The position numbers were made by a program, and so were the translations under genes. From assembly GCA_025351615.1 (NCBI GenBank), contig JANXVP010000042.1, forward strand, positions 1-15,651: a stretch of DNA of 15,651 nucleotides. The letters run 5' to 3'. The DNA comes from Ramlibacter sp. (GTDB lineage Bacteria > Pseudomonadota > Gammaproteobacteria > Burkholderiales > Burkholderiaceae_C). This document shows, one piece after another, positions 1 to 15,140 of the stretch. Positions within the stretch are counted from its first letter, which is position 1; the number at the start of each line of letters is the position of its first letter. The notes under the pieces were generated by a model, which saw nothing but the letters and a program-made list of their open reading frames with translations, searched no databases and was not told where the DNA came from.

Positions 1-148
1 GGAACATCGGCAGCGATTTTTCCAGGTTGATGATGTGGATCTTGTTGCGATGGCCGAAGATGAAGGGGGCCATCTTGGGATTCCAGAAGCGGGTCTGGTG
101 GCCGAAATGGACACCTGCTTCCAGCATTTCGCGCATGGAGACTGACAT
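1..148 (-). CDS. rpsB: 30S ribosomal protein S2, N-terminal part (runs off the window)
   Basis: The reverse strand from an ATG at 148 reads [20 protein letters not shown], continuing through [20 protein letters not shown] to NLEKSLPMF at the window edge. This is the highly conserved N-terminus of bacterial ribosomal protein S2, a component of the small-subunit head needed for S1 binding. Only 49 codons are present; the rest lies to the left, where tsf usually follows in proteobacteria. A Shine-Dalgarno CGGAG (160-156) sits 7 nt before the ATG and confirms the start. The internal ATG four codons in lacks a comparable site. It is preceded by a long structured leader and an extended -10 promoter. 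Confidence 0.97.
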
Positions 149-300
149 GGATGAACTCCGAAGGTTGGGTCTAAAATCCAGCCCGAAATCGCTTTCGTCG
201 TTTTGACGAATGCGACACCTTGGTGGGCCGGTTTGTGGATGGCTTCGCGACGCAGGTCGCGTTGCCTGTTCGGCAAGGCAGCTCGCGCCACCAGCCAAAC
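149..300 (-). promoter_or_regulatory. Putative structured 5' leader of rpsB (candidate S2 autoregulatory RNA)
   Basis: This is about 150 nt between the predicted start site (near 300) and the rpsB ATG. On the minus strand, GUUUG (300-296) can pair with CAAAC (235-231), and GGUGGC (292-287) with GCCAUC (243-238, one G-U). This closes a domain containing two perfect hairpins: UUGCC/GGCAA (276-262) and CGCGAC/GTCGCG (261-246, loop 4). A third hairpin, TTCGTC/GACGAA (210-194, loop 5), follows before the ribosome site. Known: in gammaproteobacteria rpsB is autoregulated by S2 through its leader. That this leader does the same is inference. Folding was done by eye only. Confidence 0.5.
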
Positions 301-305
301 CCATA

Positions 306-318
306 GATCATAGCAGAG
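306..318 (-). promoter_or_regulatory. rpsB promoter, extended -10
   Basis: On the minus strand the -10 hexamer is TATGAT (312-307), preceded by TGC, giving an extended -10 (TGnTATGAT). No good -35 is visible 16-18 bp upstream, as expected for an extended -10 promoter. The predicted start is near 300, exactly where the outer stem of the leader begins. The 13-mer at 306-318 is identical to one at the tRNA-Val promoter. The element lies only about 20 bp before the divergent amidase start, so transcription of the two directions may interfere. Confidence 0.55.
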
Positions 319-336
319 AACAGGCCGTTTCCACCC

Positions 337-1680
337 ATGTCCACCGACCTCCACACCACCCGGGACCGCCTGCGCGCGGGACTGACTTCAGCTCCTGCCG
401 AGCTTGAACAGGCGATCGCCATCGCCCAGTCCAGGGCCTGCGAGCATGTGTTCCTGCACACGCGCTTCGATGCGGCCCGCGCCGAGGCCGCCAACCCGGC
501 GCAGTCGTTGCGGCCCCTGGCCGGACTGGCGGTGTCGGTGAAGGATTTGTTCGACGCTGCCGGAGAAGTCACTGCGGCCGGTTCCTCGGTCCTGGCTGAC
601 GCCGCAGTTGCAACGCAGGACAGCGCGGCCGTCGCCCGCCTGCGCGCCGCCGGCGCGGTCGTGTTGGGCCGCACCAACATGAGCGAATTCGCGTTTTCGG
701 GGGTGGGGGTCAATCCGCACTACGGCACCCCCGCGAATGCCGCCGATGCCGCGGTCGCACGGATTCCGGGCGGATCGTCCTCGGGCGCGGCGGTGTCGGT
801 CGCCACCGGCGCCGCGTTCATCGGCCTGGGTTCTGACACCGGCGGCTCGATCCGGATTCCCGCGGCACTCAATGGCATCGTCGGCTTCAAGAATACCGCG
901 CGGCTGGTGCCGCTGGAAGGCGCGTTGCCGCTGTCGAGCACGCTGGACACGGTGTGCGCGATGACGCGGTCGGTGCGGGATGCGATCCTCGCCCACGAGG
1001 CGCTGGCCCACCGCACCGTCACGCGCAGCAACGCGCCCCTTTCCAGCTACCGGTTCGCGGTGGCCCGCACCCAGATGCTGGACAGCCTCGACGCCACAGT
1101 GGCGCGCGCTTTCGAACGCAGCGTCCGCGCTCTGCGCGATGCGGGCGCCCAGGTCACGGAGATCGACCTGTCCGGCATCCAGGACCTGGGCACCATCCAG
1201 GCCACGGGCGGCTTCTCCGCGGCGGAAAGCTATGCCTGGCATCGCCAGCTGCTCGAAACGCGTGGCAACGGCTATGACCCCCGGGTGCGGATCCGCATCG
1301 AGCGGGGCGCCACGATGAAAGCCTGCGAGTACATCGATTTGTTCGGCGCCCGCCGCGAATGGATTGCGCGCATCGATGCGGCACTGCGCGGCTACGACGC
1401 CGTGCTGTCGCCCACGGTACCGATCGTGGCACCGCCCATCGCGTCGGTCGCGCCGGGGAAGGAACGCGACGCGGAATTCTTCCGCGTCAATGCGCTGCTG
1501 CTGCGCAACCCCAGCGTGGTCAACATGCTCGACGGATGCGCGATCTCGATTCCGTGCCACGCGCCCGGTGAACTGCCGGTCGGGCTGATGCTGTGGCACG
1601 GCGCGATGCGCGACGACACCATCCTGAACATCGCGCAGCAGGCCGAAGCCGCACTGGCTCCAGTTTCAGGGACTGAATGA
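337..1680 (+). CDS. Amidase-signature family hydrolase
   Basis: This 447-residue protein belongs to the amidase signature (AS) family, which hydrolyses C-N amide bonds with a Ser-cisSer-Lys triad. Visible motifs: SVKDLF with K69; GGSSSGAAVSVATG with S147 as the cis-serine; GSDTGGSIRIPAALNG with S171 as nucleophile. The 24-residue gap between S147 and S171 matches the family. The length suits a stand-alone amidase and is slightly short for GatA; without a GatB/GatC neighbour a tRNA-amidotransferase role is unlikely. There is no signal peptide, so it is cytoplasmic. The ATG has only a weak ribosome site. Its stop codon overlaps the first of two tiny ORFs before dadA, so it probably heads an operon with dadA. 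The substrate cannot be told. Confidence 0.9.
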   Translation: MSTDLHTTRDRLRAGLTSAPAELEQAIAIAQSRACEHVFLHTRFDAARAEAANPAQSLRPLAGLAVSVKDLFDAAGEVTAAGSSVLADAAVATQDSAAVARLRAAGAVVLGRTNMSEFAFSGVGVNPHYGTPANAADAAVARIPGGSSSGAAVSVATGAAFIGLGSDTGGSIRIPAALNGIVGFKNTARLVPLEGALPLSSTLDTVCAMTRSVRDAILAHEALAHRTVTRSNAPLSSYRFAVARTQMLDSLDATVARAFERSVRALRDAGAQVTEIDLSGIQDLGTIQATGGFSAAESYAWHRQLLETRGNGYDPRVRIRIERGATMKACEYIDLFGARREWIARIDAALRGYDAVLSPTVPIVAPPIASVAPGKERDAEFFRVNALLLRNPSVVNMLDGCAISIPCHAPGELPVGLMLWHGAMRDDTILNIAQQAEAALAPVSGTE

Positions 1681-1712
1681 AAATCGCCAGCGCAGTCAAA
1701 GGACGGCGATGA
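1677..1712 (+). CDS. Mini-ORF 1 (MKIASAVKGRR), coupled to the amidase stop
   Basis: This 11-codon ORF starts at an ATG overlapping the amidase TGA (ATGA at 1677-1680) and ends at TGA 1710-1712, which overlaps the next start. A purine-rich AGGGA lies about 4 nt upstream, inside the amidase C-terminus. The peptide opens MKIA, like DadA, and ends RR. I recognise no function. It may be a passive by-product of duplication or a translational relay between amidase and dadA. Translation is unproven. Confidence 0.35.
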   Translation: MKIASAVKGRR

Positions 1713-1744
1713 AGATCGCCCATACAGCAGGAGCACGGCGATGA
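1709..1744 (+). CDS. Mini-ORF 2 (MKIAHTAGARR), coupled to the dadA start
   Basis: This second 11-codon ORF starts at the ATGA (1709-1712) that ends mini-ORF 1 and stops at TGA 1742-1744, overlapping the dadA ATG at 1741. It has a good ribosome site, AAAGGA (1698-1703), 5 nt before the ATG. It shares MKIA at the start and RR at the end with mini-ORF 1 (6 of 11 residues identical). Its termination places ribosomes directly on the dadA start, so if translated it would modulate dadA by reinitiation. That role is inference. Confidence 0.35.
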   Translation: MKIAHTAGARR

Positions 1745-3018
1745 AGATCGCCGTCGTGGGCGCCGGCATCATTGGCGTGACCACTGCTTACGAACTGGCG
1801 GTCGATGGCCACCAGGTCACCGTGTTCGAGCGCCGTGGCGCTGTCGCCGAGGAAACCAGCTTTGCCAACGCGGGCGTCGTCGCACCCGGCGCCGTGACTC
1901 CCTGGGCCGCACCGGGTATGCCGGGCAAGGTCGCGCGCTACCTGTTCAGCCGGCATGCGCCAGTGCGGCTGTGCCTGCCTCTCACATCGGCCGAGATCGG
2001 CTGGATGTGGAAATGGTGGCGCGCCTGCACGCTCGAAACCTATCTTGCGAATCGCGCGCGGATGCAGCGGTTGGCGTTCTACAGTCGCGAGCGCCTGCAC
2101 CGCCTGACCGAGGACCTGAAGCTGGAGTACGACCATACCCCCGGCTACATGGTGCTGCTGCGCTCGGAAAATGACAGCAAGCTGGCGCAGCCGGGCTTGC
2201 AGGTGCTGCGCGACGCGGGCGTCGCCTTTCGCGAAATCGACGCCGCACAGGCGCGGCTGCTGGAGCCCGCGCTCAATCCCGACACCGACTTTCTGGGCGC
2301 GGTGCACCTGCCCGATGACGAAGTGGGCAATTGCCGGCAATTCGCGCTGCTGCTGAAAACCCAGGCCCAGCGCCTGGGCGTCGATTTCGAATTCAACAGC
2401 ACCGTCGCGCCGCTCGACCCCGCTGCGCCGTCGACCCTGCGGATCGCGGCGGATGGCGCGCAGCCGCGCCAGCAGCGCTTCGACGCGGTGGTCATCTGCG
2501 GCGCGCTCGAGTCGGCGCCGCTGCTGCGTCCGCTCGGTCTGAAGCTGCCATTGGCCGCGGTGCACGGCTACTCGATCAGCGCGCCGATTCGCGAACCGCT
2601 CAACGCGCCTCGCAGTGCCTTGATGGACGAGCGTTACAAGGTCGCGATCTCCAGGCTCGGCAACCGCGTCCGGGTGGCCGGCAGCGCCGAGATCGGAGGG
2701 TCGCCCACCGCCAGGCGGCCTGCCGCAATCCAGACGCTCTACAAGGTGCTGCACGACTGGTTCCCCGGCGCAGCGCAGATCTCCAACACCGGCGCCGCAG
2801 TGCAGGAATGGAAAGGCGCGCGGCCGATGCTTCCCGACGGGCCGCCGGTGCTGGGCGCCACCGGCATTCCCGGCGTCTGGATCAACATCGGGCACGGCTC
2901 TAGCGGCTGGGCACTGGCCTGCGGAAGCGCCCGTGCCATCGCCGACCTGATGGGCGGCCGCGCGCCGGACCTGGACATCGAAGGGCTGGGCGTCGAGCGC
3001 TTGACCGCGCTGCGATGA
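1741..3018 (+). CDS. dadA: D-amino-acid dehydrogenase, DadA-type FAD oxidoreductase
   Basis: This 425-residue FAD-dependent oxidoreductase oxidatively deaminates D-amino acids to 2-oxo acids and ammonia, passing electrons to the respiratory chain at the inner face of the membrane. The N-terminus has the dinucleotide fold VGAGIIG (G7, G9, G12) with E30 ending strand 2. DadA hallmarks follow: ETSFANAG (39-45), PWAAPG (54-59), and near the C-terminus WKGARPMLPDG and INIGHGSSGWALACGS (from residue 381). Length fits the family. The start is fixed by AGGAG (1729-1733) 7 nt before the ATG. The ATG overlaps the stop of mini-ORF 2. Its TGA (3016-3018) also overlaps an ATG, though nnr probably starts later. 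Pairing with an amidase suggests amide or D-amino-acid catabolism. The exact substrate is open, since glycine or sarcosine oxidases share the fold. Confidence 0.85.
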   Translation: MKIAVVGAGIIGVTTAYELAVDGHQVTVFERRGAVAEETSFANAGVVAPGAVTPWAAPGMPGKVARYLFSRHAPVRLCLPLTSAEIGWMWKWWRACTLETYLANRARMQRLAFYSRERLHRLTEDLKLEYDHTPGYMVLLRSENDSKLAQPGLQVLRDAGVAFREIDAAQARLLEPALNPDTDFLGAVHLPDDEVGNCRQFALLLKTQAQRLGVDFEFNSTVAPLDPAAPSTLRIAADGAQPRQQRFDAVVICGALESAPLLRPLGLKLPLAAVHGYSISAPIREPLNAPRSALMDERYKVAISRLGNRVRVAGSAEIGGSPTARRPAAIQTLYKVLHDWFPGAAQISNTGAAVQEWKGARPMLPDGPPVLGATGIPGVWINIGHGSSGWALACGSARAIADLMGGRAPDLDIEGLGVERLTALR

Positions 3019-3032
3019 CCTGTGCGTCTGGG

Positions 3033-3041
3033 TGCCAGAAT
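3033..3041 (+). promoter_or_regulatory. Candidate leaderless promoter of nnr (extended -10)
   Basis: TGC followed by CAGAAT (3036-3041) forms an extended -10-like element. CAGAAT ends exactly 6 nt before the ATG at 3048, so the predicted start site is the A of that ATG. A partial -35 match, ATGACC at 3015-3020, has a short 15-bp spacer. No Shine-Dalgarno is present before 3048, which fits a leaderless mRNA. By-eye call. Confidence 0.35.
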
Positions 3042-3047
3042 CCGTCC

Positions 3048-4553
3048 ATGCAACGCATCACGCCCGATCGGCGCCGGCCCCTGTTCGACGTCGCAGCGAC
3101 GCGGCAGATCGAGCAGGCAACTGCTTCGATCCTGCCTCCCCATGCCTTGATGCAAAAGGCCGGCCTGGCAGTGGCGCGACTGGCGCTCGCGCTGATGCCA
3201 CATGCCCAGCGGGTCTGGATCGCGTGCGGTCCCGGCAACAACGGTGGCGACGGTCTCGAAGCTGCGACGCATCTGCAGCGTTGGGGCAAGCAGGCCATCG
3301 TGACATGGATGGGCAACGAAGCCCAGGCTCCAGCGGACGCACTCGCGGCGCTACGACGGGCCCGGCAGGCCGGGGTGACCGTTGGGGAAACGGCGCCGCC
3401 CCAGTTCGATCTGGCCATCGATGCGCTGCTTGGCCTCGGAAGCTCCCGCGCCATCCAGGGACGCATGGCGCAATGGGTCGTGCACATGAACGCAGGATCG
3501 GCGCCGGTGCTCGCCGTCGACCTGCCGTCGGGGCTGAACGCCGATACCGGAACCGGGATCGAGGTGCGGGCGACGCACACGCTTTCGCTGCTCACGCTCA
3601 AACCCGGCCTCTTCACAGCACACGGTCGCGATGCTTCCGGCGAGATCTGGTTCGACGATCTCGGTGCCGACTGGAGCGACGCGAATGACTGCAAACCGAC
3701 CGCCTGGCTGGGCGTGGATCCCCTGCCCCGCGTCCGCCTCCACGCCTCACACAAAGGCAGCTACGGCGACGTCGCGGTGATCGGCGGCGCGCCGGGCATG
3801 ACGGGTGCGGCCCTGCTTGCCGCGGCCGCGGCGCTGCACAGCGGTGCGGGCCGGGTCTTGGTCGGCCTGCTCGACGCGGCTTCGCTGGGTGTGGATGCGG
3901 CGCAGCCCGAGCTGATGCTGCGGCCGTGGGACTCGCTCGACCTGGCAGCGATGAGCGTGGCTTGCGGATGCGGCGGGGGTGAGGCAGTCCGCGCCGTGCT
4001 GCCCAAAGTACTGTCGACTGCACGCGCGCTGGTGCTCGACGCCGACGCGCTGAATGCAATCGCAGGCGACCCGCAATTGCAGGCCCAACTGACAGCACGC
4101 GCGGGCCGCAGCGGTCGGGCCACGGTCATCACGCCGCACCCCCTGGAGGCGGCTCGCCTGCTCGCCTGCAGCAGCGCCGAGGTGCAGGCCGACCGTCTCG
4201 CTGCAGCCGCTGAACTGGCCGATCGCTATCGCTGCGTCGCCTTGCTCAAGGGATCAGGCAGCATCACGGCGCAACCGGGTCGGTTGGCGGTGATCAACTT
4301 CAGCGGCAATGCCAGACTGGCGACCGCAGGAACCGGTGACGTGCTGGCCGGGATGATCGCCGCGAGGTTGGCGCAAGGCGAACCCGCTTTCGACGCAGCC
4401 AGCCAGGCCACCCACATCCACGGACGGACGGCGGACTGCTGGCCCGCAGACCAGCCCCTGACGGCAATGCGGCTTGCAACACGGTCGGGCGGCACTGGTG
4501 CGGAACTCACCGAGGCAGCCAAACATTTCGAGGCAAAGGAGACGCCCCAATGA
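3048..4553 (+). CDS. nnr: Bifunctional NAD(P)HX epimerase / ADP-dependent NAD(P)HX dehydratase
   Basis: This 501-residue fusion repairs hydrated NADH and NADPH (NAD(P)HX). The N-terminal YjeF_N/NnrE domain epimerises the R and S hydrates: GPGNNGGDG (residues 61-69), then AVDLPSGLNADTG. The C-terminal ribokinase-like NnrD domain dehydrates S-NAD(P)HX using ADP: SHKGSYGDVAVIGG (from about 234), TPHPLEAARLL, ALLKGS, and the anion-hole and catalytic motif GTGDVLAG (428-435). Both halves look intact and length is normal. I start at 3048 (MQRITPDRRR) because the protein begins there by analogy with homologues and a -10-like element lies 6 nt upstream. An in-frame ATG at 3015, overlapping the dadA stop as ATGA, would add 11 residues. 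Nnr is a cytosolic housekeeping repair enzyme. The gene overlaps the next by ATGA. Confidence 0.93.
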   Translation: MQRITPDRRRPLFDVAATRQIEQATASILPPHALMQKAGLAVARLALALMPHAQRVWIACGPGNNGGDGLEAATHLQRWGKQAIVTWMGNEAQAPADALAALRRARQAGVTVGETAPPQFDLAIDALLGLGSSRAIQGRMAQWVVHMNAGSAPVLAVDLPSGLNADTGTGIEVRATHTLSLLTLKPGLFTAHGRDASGEIWFDDLGADWSDANDCKPTAWLGVDPLPRVRLHASHKGSYGDVAVIGGAPGMTGAALLAAAAALHSGAGRVLVGLLDAASLGVDAAQPELMLRPWDSLDLAAMSVACGCGGGEAVRAVLPKVLSTARALVLDADALNAIAGDPQLQAQLTARAGRSGRATVITPHPLEAARLLACSSAEVQADRLAAAAELADRYRCVALLKGSGSITAQPGRLAVINFSGNARLATAGTGDVLAGMIAARLAQGEPAFDAASQATHIHGRTADCWPADQPLTAMRLATRSGGTGAELTEAAKHFEAKETPQ

Positions 4554-8703: not shown

Positions 8704-8788
<85 letters not shown>

Positions 8789-8793
8789 ATCAT

Positions 8794-14369: not shown

Positions 14370-15140
<771 letters not shown>

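Follow-up and report, generated by a model that had tools for sequence, protein, structure and literature searches.

Introduction

In several described systems a short open reading frame (ORF) ends on the start codon of the gene behind it. In the mycobacterial RTGA-coupled small ORFs, reported on leaderless transcripts, the TGA stop of the short ORF overlaps the RTG start of the next gene; in one example given there the coupling is conserved and the peptide is not, and ribosome delivery was proposed as the role (Shell et al. 2015, PMC4633059). The leader ORF of Escherichia coli iraD likewise overlaps the downstream start with its stop codon, while an RNA structure sequesters the iraD ribosome site, and repression by CsrA is reported to work through this leader-ORF coupling (PMC5574718). 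Synthetic bicistronic designs with fore-cistrons, as well as nonsense nfORFs, employ a short upstream ORF that is described as carrying ribosomes whatever its peptide (PMC10367133, PMC13255528). Mycobacterial interspersed repetitive units (MIRUs), reviewed as dispersed and seemingly mobile, place at a start codon a repeat that carries an ORF in -4 nt coupling with the gene behind it (PMC12548453). At overlapping gene pairs coupling is reported to be tight (PMC6728339), and it was nearly lost at about 20 nt in the six E. coli and Haloferax volcanii pairs tested (PMC10666635). Here we describe two mini-ORFs that lie in tandem between an amidase gene and dadA, the gene for a D-amino acid dehydrogenase-like oxidoreductase, in a 15,651-nt stretch of DNA from Ramlibacter sp. 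(contig JANXVP010000042.1; the whole stretch is hereafter called the window), and we compare this junction with the corresponding junctions of related Burkholderiales.

The arrangement at dadA is real and conserved, and two units in series were seen only in the window. As reported for the mycobacterial RTGA-coupled ORFs, frame and overlap are conserved between species and the peptide, as judged from pooled sequence comparisons, on the whole is not. Unlike the mycobacterial ORFs as portrayed in that report, the present ones belong to dadA of Burkholderiales and, in Ramlibacter, to an operon-like gene pair, and the window adds a tandem duplication and a predicted start-codon hairpin. The 32-bp unit of the window shares with MIRUs its place at a start codon and the -4 nt coupling, but no close copy of it was found elsewhere, and its location suggests that it was duplicated locally at dadA. 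Whereas the iraD ORF, which the mini-ORFs resemble in the overlap of stop and downstream start, is situated in a 5' leader under CsrA, the chain in the window begins at a full upstream gene. In contrast to the engineered fore-cistrons and nfORFs, the mini-ORFs occur naturally and persist across species, and one genome has two of them in series. With overlapping gene pairs they have the ATGA overlap and the tight distance dependence in common; unlike those, they connect two genes that do not meet, the stop of one lying apart from the start of the other. Among the top-ranked titles and abstract openings of a literature search, which left most subscription papers outside, no paper on mini-ORFs before dadA in these genera was found.

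Results and discussion

A chain of ATGA overlaps leads from the amidase gene to dadA

The first-pass annotation of the window had described three starts 32 bp apart, two 11-codon mini-ORFs and three consecutive ATGA overlaps, and all of this was borne out (Table 1). The motif ATGAARATCGCC recurs at 1677, 1709 and 1741 with a spacing of exactly 32 bp, and each copy coincides with a 4-nt same-strand overlap of stop and start codon, the arrangement that marks ATGA-coupled pairs. When one mismatch is allowed, the motif has four matches in the window, the fourth at 14577 with one mismatch, as compared with a mean of 0.14 in shuffled sequence; none of 200 shuffles reached four. The purine-rich sites AGGGA, AAAGGA and AGGAG noted earlier before the three starts are present by eye, and the two that were scored, those of mini-ORF1 and dadA, have predicted anti-Shine-Dalgarno energies of -4.3 and -6.6 kcal/mol, respectively. 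The amidase ORF also matches the NCBIfam amidase model NF005460 with 618.9 bits (cut-off 447). The dadA product scores 418.8 bits against the curated D-amino acid dehydrogenase model NF001933 (cut-off 383), and since position 1 of this model aligns to residue 1 of DadA, Met1 is the likely start and a mis-annotated dadA start was rejected. Its closest named matches (the best two among the matches listed) come from Ramlibacter metagenome-assembled genomes, at 88%.

Table 1. Features at the junction between the amidase gene and dadA in the window
Feature	Position	Strand	Details
Amidase ORF	337..1680	+	447 aa, first in the chain; PF01425, 1.5e-75
Putative mini-ORF1 ribosome site, AGGGA	1668..1672	+	inside the amidase tail; sequence
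Mini-ORF1	1677..1712	+	11 codons, MKIASAVKGRR; start overlaps amidase stop (ATGA)
32-bp unit 1	1677..1708	+	ATGAARATCGCC at 1677
Putative mini-ORF2 ribosome site, AAAGGA	1698..1703	+	by eye
Alternative long hairpin joining the two unit starts	1702..1755	+	inverted repeat and folding
Mini-ORF2 start hairpin, GGCGAT-GAAG-ATCGCC	1705..1720	+	6 bp, predicted -9.6 kcal/mol
Mini-ORF2	1709..1744	+	11 codons, MKIAHTAGARR; ATGA overlap at either end
32-bp unit 2	1709..1740	+	ATGAARATCGCC at 1709
Putative dadA ribosome site, AGGAG	1729..1733	+	predicted -6.6 kcal/mol
Predicted dadA start-codon hairpin, ACGGCGAU-GAAG-AUCGCCGU	1735..1754	+	8 bp, about -14 kcal/mol
dadA, D-amino acid dehydrogenase-like FAD (flavin adenine dinucleotide) oxidoreductase	1741..3018	+	425 aa; PF01266, 2.3e-62

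We think it fairly probable that the mini-ORFs constitute a fore-cistron relay that works independently of their peptides, through termination-reinitiation and hairpin opening. Ribosomes would enter from the amidase end or via the site before mini-ORF1, terminate at 1678-1680 and restart at 1677, terminate again at 1710-1712 and restart at 1709, and finally terminate at 1742-1744 and restart on dadA; in transit they would open the hairpin that holds the dadA AUG. Three parts of this account are inferred: translation of the mini-ORFs themselves, the restarts, and the hairpin as a barrier to independent initiation at dadA. Because coupling was nearly lost at about 20 nt in the gene pairs cited above, a bare gap of 60 nt would be expected to uncouple dadA from the amidase gene; as read from the sequence, the two mini-ORFs restore a spacing of -4 nt at each step across this gap. 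We agree with the first-pass annotation that duplication of a 3n-1 unit creates such a chain automatically. Duplicating an existing unit of this length keeps the chain, and thus the second unit is no independent evidence.

The coupled frame is kept in Ramlibacter and in the Polaromonas clade

DadA orthologues were collected from 54 of 60 genomes of the genus and 122 of 399 genomes drawn from the family (both at E <= 1e-140), and at least 80 further named dadA loci were added from among the matches listed. The resulting 206 dadA loci gave 205 junctions (L217 gave none), 156 of which are distinct. One genus match (G001) was left out because its dadA start is missing, and 92 family matches are without a locus (49 fetched, 11 genus matches among them). 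The Ramlibacter-like set (58 junctions) and the Polaromonas set (29) were compiled manually on the basis of genus membership, record titles and the tree; five of the 58 have no protein row in the DadA tree and five more fall outside its 48-row Ramlibacter clade. Presence of the amidase gene was judged only in the upstream flank of each locus.

The Ramlibacter-like junctions comprise 20 direct ATGA overlaps, 16 with a mini-ORF and 14 in which the dadA start lies at -1 to +7 nt; in all, 50 of the 58 dadA starts overlap an upstream stop, of the amidase gene or a mini-ORF, or lie no more than 7 nt from it. Gaps of at least 8 nt are found at 24 junctions, 14 of them behind an amidase gene that ends on ATGA and 10 behind another stop. 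In the former class a mini-ORF bridges the gap in all 14 cases (25, 28, 31 or 40 nt, and 60 nt with two units), including L004, which has an amidase remnant, and L022, in which the amidase gene ends on TTGA. In the latter class a mini-ORF with its own start is present in L021 and L023 and none in the other eight. Twelve of the 16 mini-ORFs have 11 codons, the remaining four 8, 10, 12 and 15, and the number of units differs between species (0, 1 or 2).

In the Polaromonas clade (29 rows; support 97 in the Shimodaira-Hasegawa-like approximate likelihood ratio test, SH-aLRT) the stop of a mini-ORF overlaps the dadA start in every row, by ATGA in 28 and by GTGA in L101, where dadA starts with GTG. 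Dinucleotide shuffles of the upstream DNA gave an expectation of 6.05 (standard deviation 2.1); they used 120 nt upstream for L131 and for the seven loci mentioned below. In either of the other two frames, only a single row of 29 is open from an ATG. The length of the mini-ORF changed at least 13 times on this part of the DadA tree with the frame intact in every row (the L110 mini-ORF has a GTG start and 19 codons; the count took an inner ATG, 6 codons). The junctions of relatives, the comparison of which had been proposed with the first-pass annotation, are hence not random. The relay suggested there is retained, its frame being kept in relatives, but not its restriction to tuning dadA relative to the amidase: seven Polaromonas-clade loci possess a mini-ORF with no amidase gene detected in the upstream flank, and therefore the mini-ORF is not only an amidase-relative device.

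Outside both sets, 16 of 58 junctions are coupled in this way as compared with 9.7 (standard deviation 2.7) expected; the excess is modest, and one clade of related loci contributes to it; some mini-ORF is seen in 17 of 69 junctions there. As a control, 20 paralogues were fetched. Seventeen have XTGA starts, and a mini-ORF of 6-45 codons precedes two of these 17; in five more XTGA paralogues there are in-frame ATG codons, the farthest more than 45 codons away, within long open frames. Among the genes of 400-kb samples the count was 19 of 85 for a Polaromonas-clade genome (own dadA included) and 6 of 27 for a Ramlibacter genome, near the shuffle rate, with crude gene calls (first ATG or GTG of long ORFs) and the farthest in-frame ATG counted. 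These low counts indicate that the coupled mini-ORF is a trait of dadA and not of the genomes at large.

A separate group of uncultured beta-proteobacteria (L121, L124, L127 and L136) has an 11-codon mini-ORF of its own that is ATGA-coupled to dadA; its peptide begins with MTLD in three of them and with MTTT in L136. In L140 (Pseudorhodoferax) and the related L178, L190 and L193, dadA starts with ATGC, so that a TGA overlap is impossible; no amidase gene was detected in their upstream flanks.

Origin of the units, and whether they are a neutral relic

The 40 nt before mini-ORF1 are identical at 31 of 40 positions to the 40 nt before dadA of the direct-overlap sister L065, and at 15 and 14 of 40 (ungapped) to those of the more distant L066 and L067. 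For the 40 nt that precede dadA of the window, identity to L065 is only 12 of 40. The start of mini-ORF1 therefore corresponds to the position of the dadA start in the sister lineage, which had been missed in the first-pass annotation, as had the start-codon hairpin. Between this old start position and dadA there is one 32-bp unit in L063 and two in the window, and the simplest reading is that units were inserted at the old dadA start. The window forms a clade with L004 and L005 (support 98), with the neighbours L006, L007 and L008 having direct overlap. L004 retains one full unit and an apparent tail of the first unit. In this metagenome assembly the amidase gene apparently has an internal deletion that begins after residue 71; what is left of the frame reads SINMLGRR before its stop and terminates on the ATGA of the mini-ORF that survives. 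This remnant was noted at 2748-2972 of L064, which lies on the same contig as L004.

It had been noted that the unit ends are conserved and the middles diverged, and that starts may be under selection. The pattern itself holds: units 1 and 2 agree at 11 of 12 start-block positions and 7 of 8 tail positions, but at only 4 of 12 in the middle. The suggested cause is less secure, because codon 2 is shared by mini-ORF2 and dadA (AAG in the window, AAC in L004), which points to exchange between repeat copies; likeness of the start blocks is thus by itself no evidence for selection. A dispersed mobile repeat of the MIRU kind was rejected: a 301-bp query of the own genome returned only a 35-bp match outside the locus, although diverged single copies could escape such a search, and the exact tandem pattern occurs in one of 60 genomes of the genus, with two matches that are both at the amidase-dadA junction. 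A loose tail pattern had four other near-matches, which is weak evidence as the pattern was poorly chosen (2 mismatches from unit 2).

These data bear on the possibility that the tandem copies stem from slippage at the start of dadA and that nothing depends on them, the chained ORFs being an automatic consequence. The 3n-1 length, which preserves the chain for free, the restriction of the two-unit pattern to one genome and the seemingly homogenised start blocks all agree with such a relic, and the trait is labile, presence and absence of the mini-ORF having changed at least seven times within the 48-row Ramlibacter clade (quick DadA tree). Nevertheless, we regard a neutral relic as rather unlikely. 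It does not account for 29 of 29 coupled rows in the Polaromonas clade where 6 are expected, nor for the one-unit gaps between an ATGA-ended amidase gene and dadA, all 13 of which (25, 28, 31 and 40 nt) are congruent to 1 modulo 3. Persistence of the chain in L004 despite loss of most of the amidase gene likewise counts for the relay and against a relic.

Ribosome sites and the predicted start-codon hairpin

In the Ramlibacter mini-ORF junctions the predicted ribosome site averages -5.2 kcal/mol for dadA and -3.4 kcal/mol for mini-ORF starts, as compared with -2.2 kcal/mol at random positions. The dadA site of the Polaromonas clade is near the random level (-2.6 kcal/mol); in this scoring the L101 mini-ORF start was taken at 55 codons, the true length being 18.

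Folding predicts that the start codon of dadA is held in a hairpin. Its 5' arm is made of the mini-ORF2 tail and the start, its 3' arm of dadA codons 3-5; the tail GGACGGCG before the ATG encodes the RR end that recurs among mini-ORFs and is complementary to these codons. GGCG immediately 5' of the dadA start is seen at 7 of the 16 Ramlibacter mini-ORF junctions but at none of 140 others (Fisher 2.9e-8, ignoring relatedness). A perfect predicted start hairpin of 7-9 bp is present in 7 of the 16, the window among them, as compared with 0 of 29 Polaromonas, 0 of 21 direct, 1 of 15 near and 0 of 58 uncoupled junctions, groups that exclude the 17 junctions with some mini-ORF outside the two sets. 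After swaps of the 5' flanks the mean count was 0.43 and the maximum 5 (2000 trials). In the region 1695-1765 of the window, one long hairpin is predicted at -30.3 kcal/mol and two local hairpins at -22.8 kcal/mol.

Structure of this strength could also serve the opposite end. Units with strong hairpins at the mini-ORF stops might make restart less frequent and insulate dadA from the amidase gene, each extra unit reducing DadA. Stable structure just 3' of stops is reported to govern reinitiation and to be enriched where insulation is useful (PMC7518266), and the predicted energy of the two-unit fold would fit; moreover, every added step can presumably only lose ribosomes. Such a brake appears improbable to us, however, given that purine-rich sites stand (by eye) before all three starts of the window, that the -4 nt overlaps are kept exactly, as coupling requires, and that the seven Polaromonas-clade loci offer no detected upstream amidase gene to insulate from.

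Peptide versus frame

Over 16 related mini-ORF pairs, which overlap and are not independent, the pooled proportions of non-synonymous (pN) and synonymous (pS) differences are 0.283 and 0.312, uncorrected for saturation. This closeness corresponds to the lack of peptide conservation in the RTGA-coupled type, and no conserved peptide or codon run of the kind expected for a sensing leader or attenuator was found. Leader ORFs near amino-acid genes often act through the nascent peptide. Control of dadA by a mini-peptide that stalls ribosomes or senses an amino acid is nonetheless very improbable and was rejected, since pooled pN is close to pS and, in spite of the RR end of several Ramlibacter mini-ORFs and pN below pS in some close pairs, no motif beyond RR is shared by eye, and ribosome site plus hairpin arm can explain RR.

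Weighing the relay

A number of observations weigh against the proposed relay. Eight of the 58 Ramlibacter-like dadA genes are without coupling, and the two-unit state is seen in one genome only, an assembly of 583 contigs. The probabilities of meeting no stop by chance multiply to 0.19 over the 14 bridged Ramlibacter junctions, in which related rows are not independent; the Ramlibacter case therefore rests on frame and length, openness alone being weak. Mini-ORF starts of the Polaromonas clade are without a Shine-Dalgarno site (mean +0.7 vs -2.2 kcal/mol at random positions). In the closer pairs L084/L085, L100/L107, L100/L108 and L095/L156 pN is clearly below pS, and a weak constraint on the peptide is compatible with these four. 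With respect to structure, the 120-nt junction fold of the window is only modestly better than shuffles, 8 of 200 being its equal (z -1.86), and 9 of the 16 Ramlibacter mini-ORF junctions lack the perfect hairpin. Hairpin and mini-ORF occur together in 1.9 of 4 phylogenetically independent pairs and are never opposed, which is not significant. In favour of the relay, rank tests of z indicate more structure at starts behind mini-ORFs than at uncoupled ones (Ramlibacter p 9.4e-5, Polaromonas p 1.1e-5), but these p values ignore relatedness, and compared with their own shuffles Polaromonas starts show no excess of structure (median z -0.08).

A more far-reaching version of the relay is tentative and in our view somewhat doubtful. 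Here, dadA of Polaromonas and Ramlibacter would be translated almost only by ribosomes delivered through the mini-cistron or the amidase gene, 32-bp modules in series (0, 1 or 2) would set DadA output, and the two-unit RNA would act as a switch, with the pair of local start hairpins as one state and the long hairpin as the other. A module would consist of ribosome site, start hairpin and overlapping stop/start, and would be gained or lost as a whole with the chain unbroken. That the number of units sets the DadA level is speculative.

One gene family thus presents several natural start states, i.e. direct overlap, one mini-ORF, two in series, no coupling, and a mini-ORF after loss of most of the amidase gene. 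Ribosome survival per stop-start step, and hairpin opening as opposed to restart, can therefore be tested by swapping junctions. An element of this kind can go unnoticed when a conserved frame without a conserved peptide is its only trace.

Further observations on the junction and the window

A known RNA family at the junction was rejected: the window's only Rfam matches at the gathering threshold are two tRNAs. Rejected, too, was a promoter within the junction, as a consensus scan of positions 1-3200 gave no sigma-70-like site. Leaderless Polaromonas mini-ORFs were considered on account of TATAAA-like A-rich runs before many starts, and dropped because the spacing to the ATG seems too short by eye. 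In L081, L095, L123 and L129 (Polaromonas, Rhodoferax) a similar TAGCTG...GGGCT.G.GGCC element, perhaps a dispersed hairpin or terminator, directly follows the amidase stop.

Downstream, dadA is joined by ATGA (3015-3018) to an ORF for a NAD(P)H-hydrate epimerase/dehydratase, and this ORF in turn by ATGA (4550-4553) to one for a GGDEF response regulator. Five consecutive ATGA overlaps can thus be read from the amidase gene onward, the start of the epimerase ORF being uncertain. A conserved -4 chain downstream of dadA was rejected, with ATGA in 2 of 21 chosen loci (window included) and GTGA or TTGA in 6. Elsewhere in the window, a tRNA-Leu gene (+, 8704-8788) overlaps the start of the predicted RNase R ORF (-, TTG at 8789), and the true RNase R start is therefore probably further inside the ORF.

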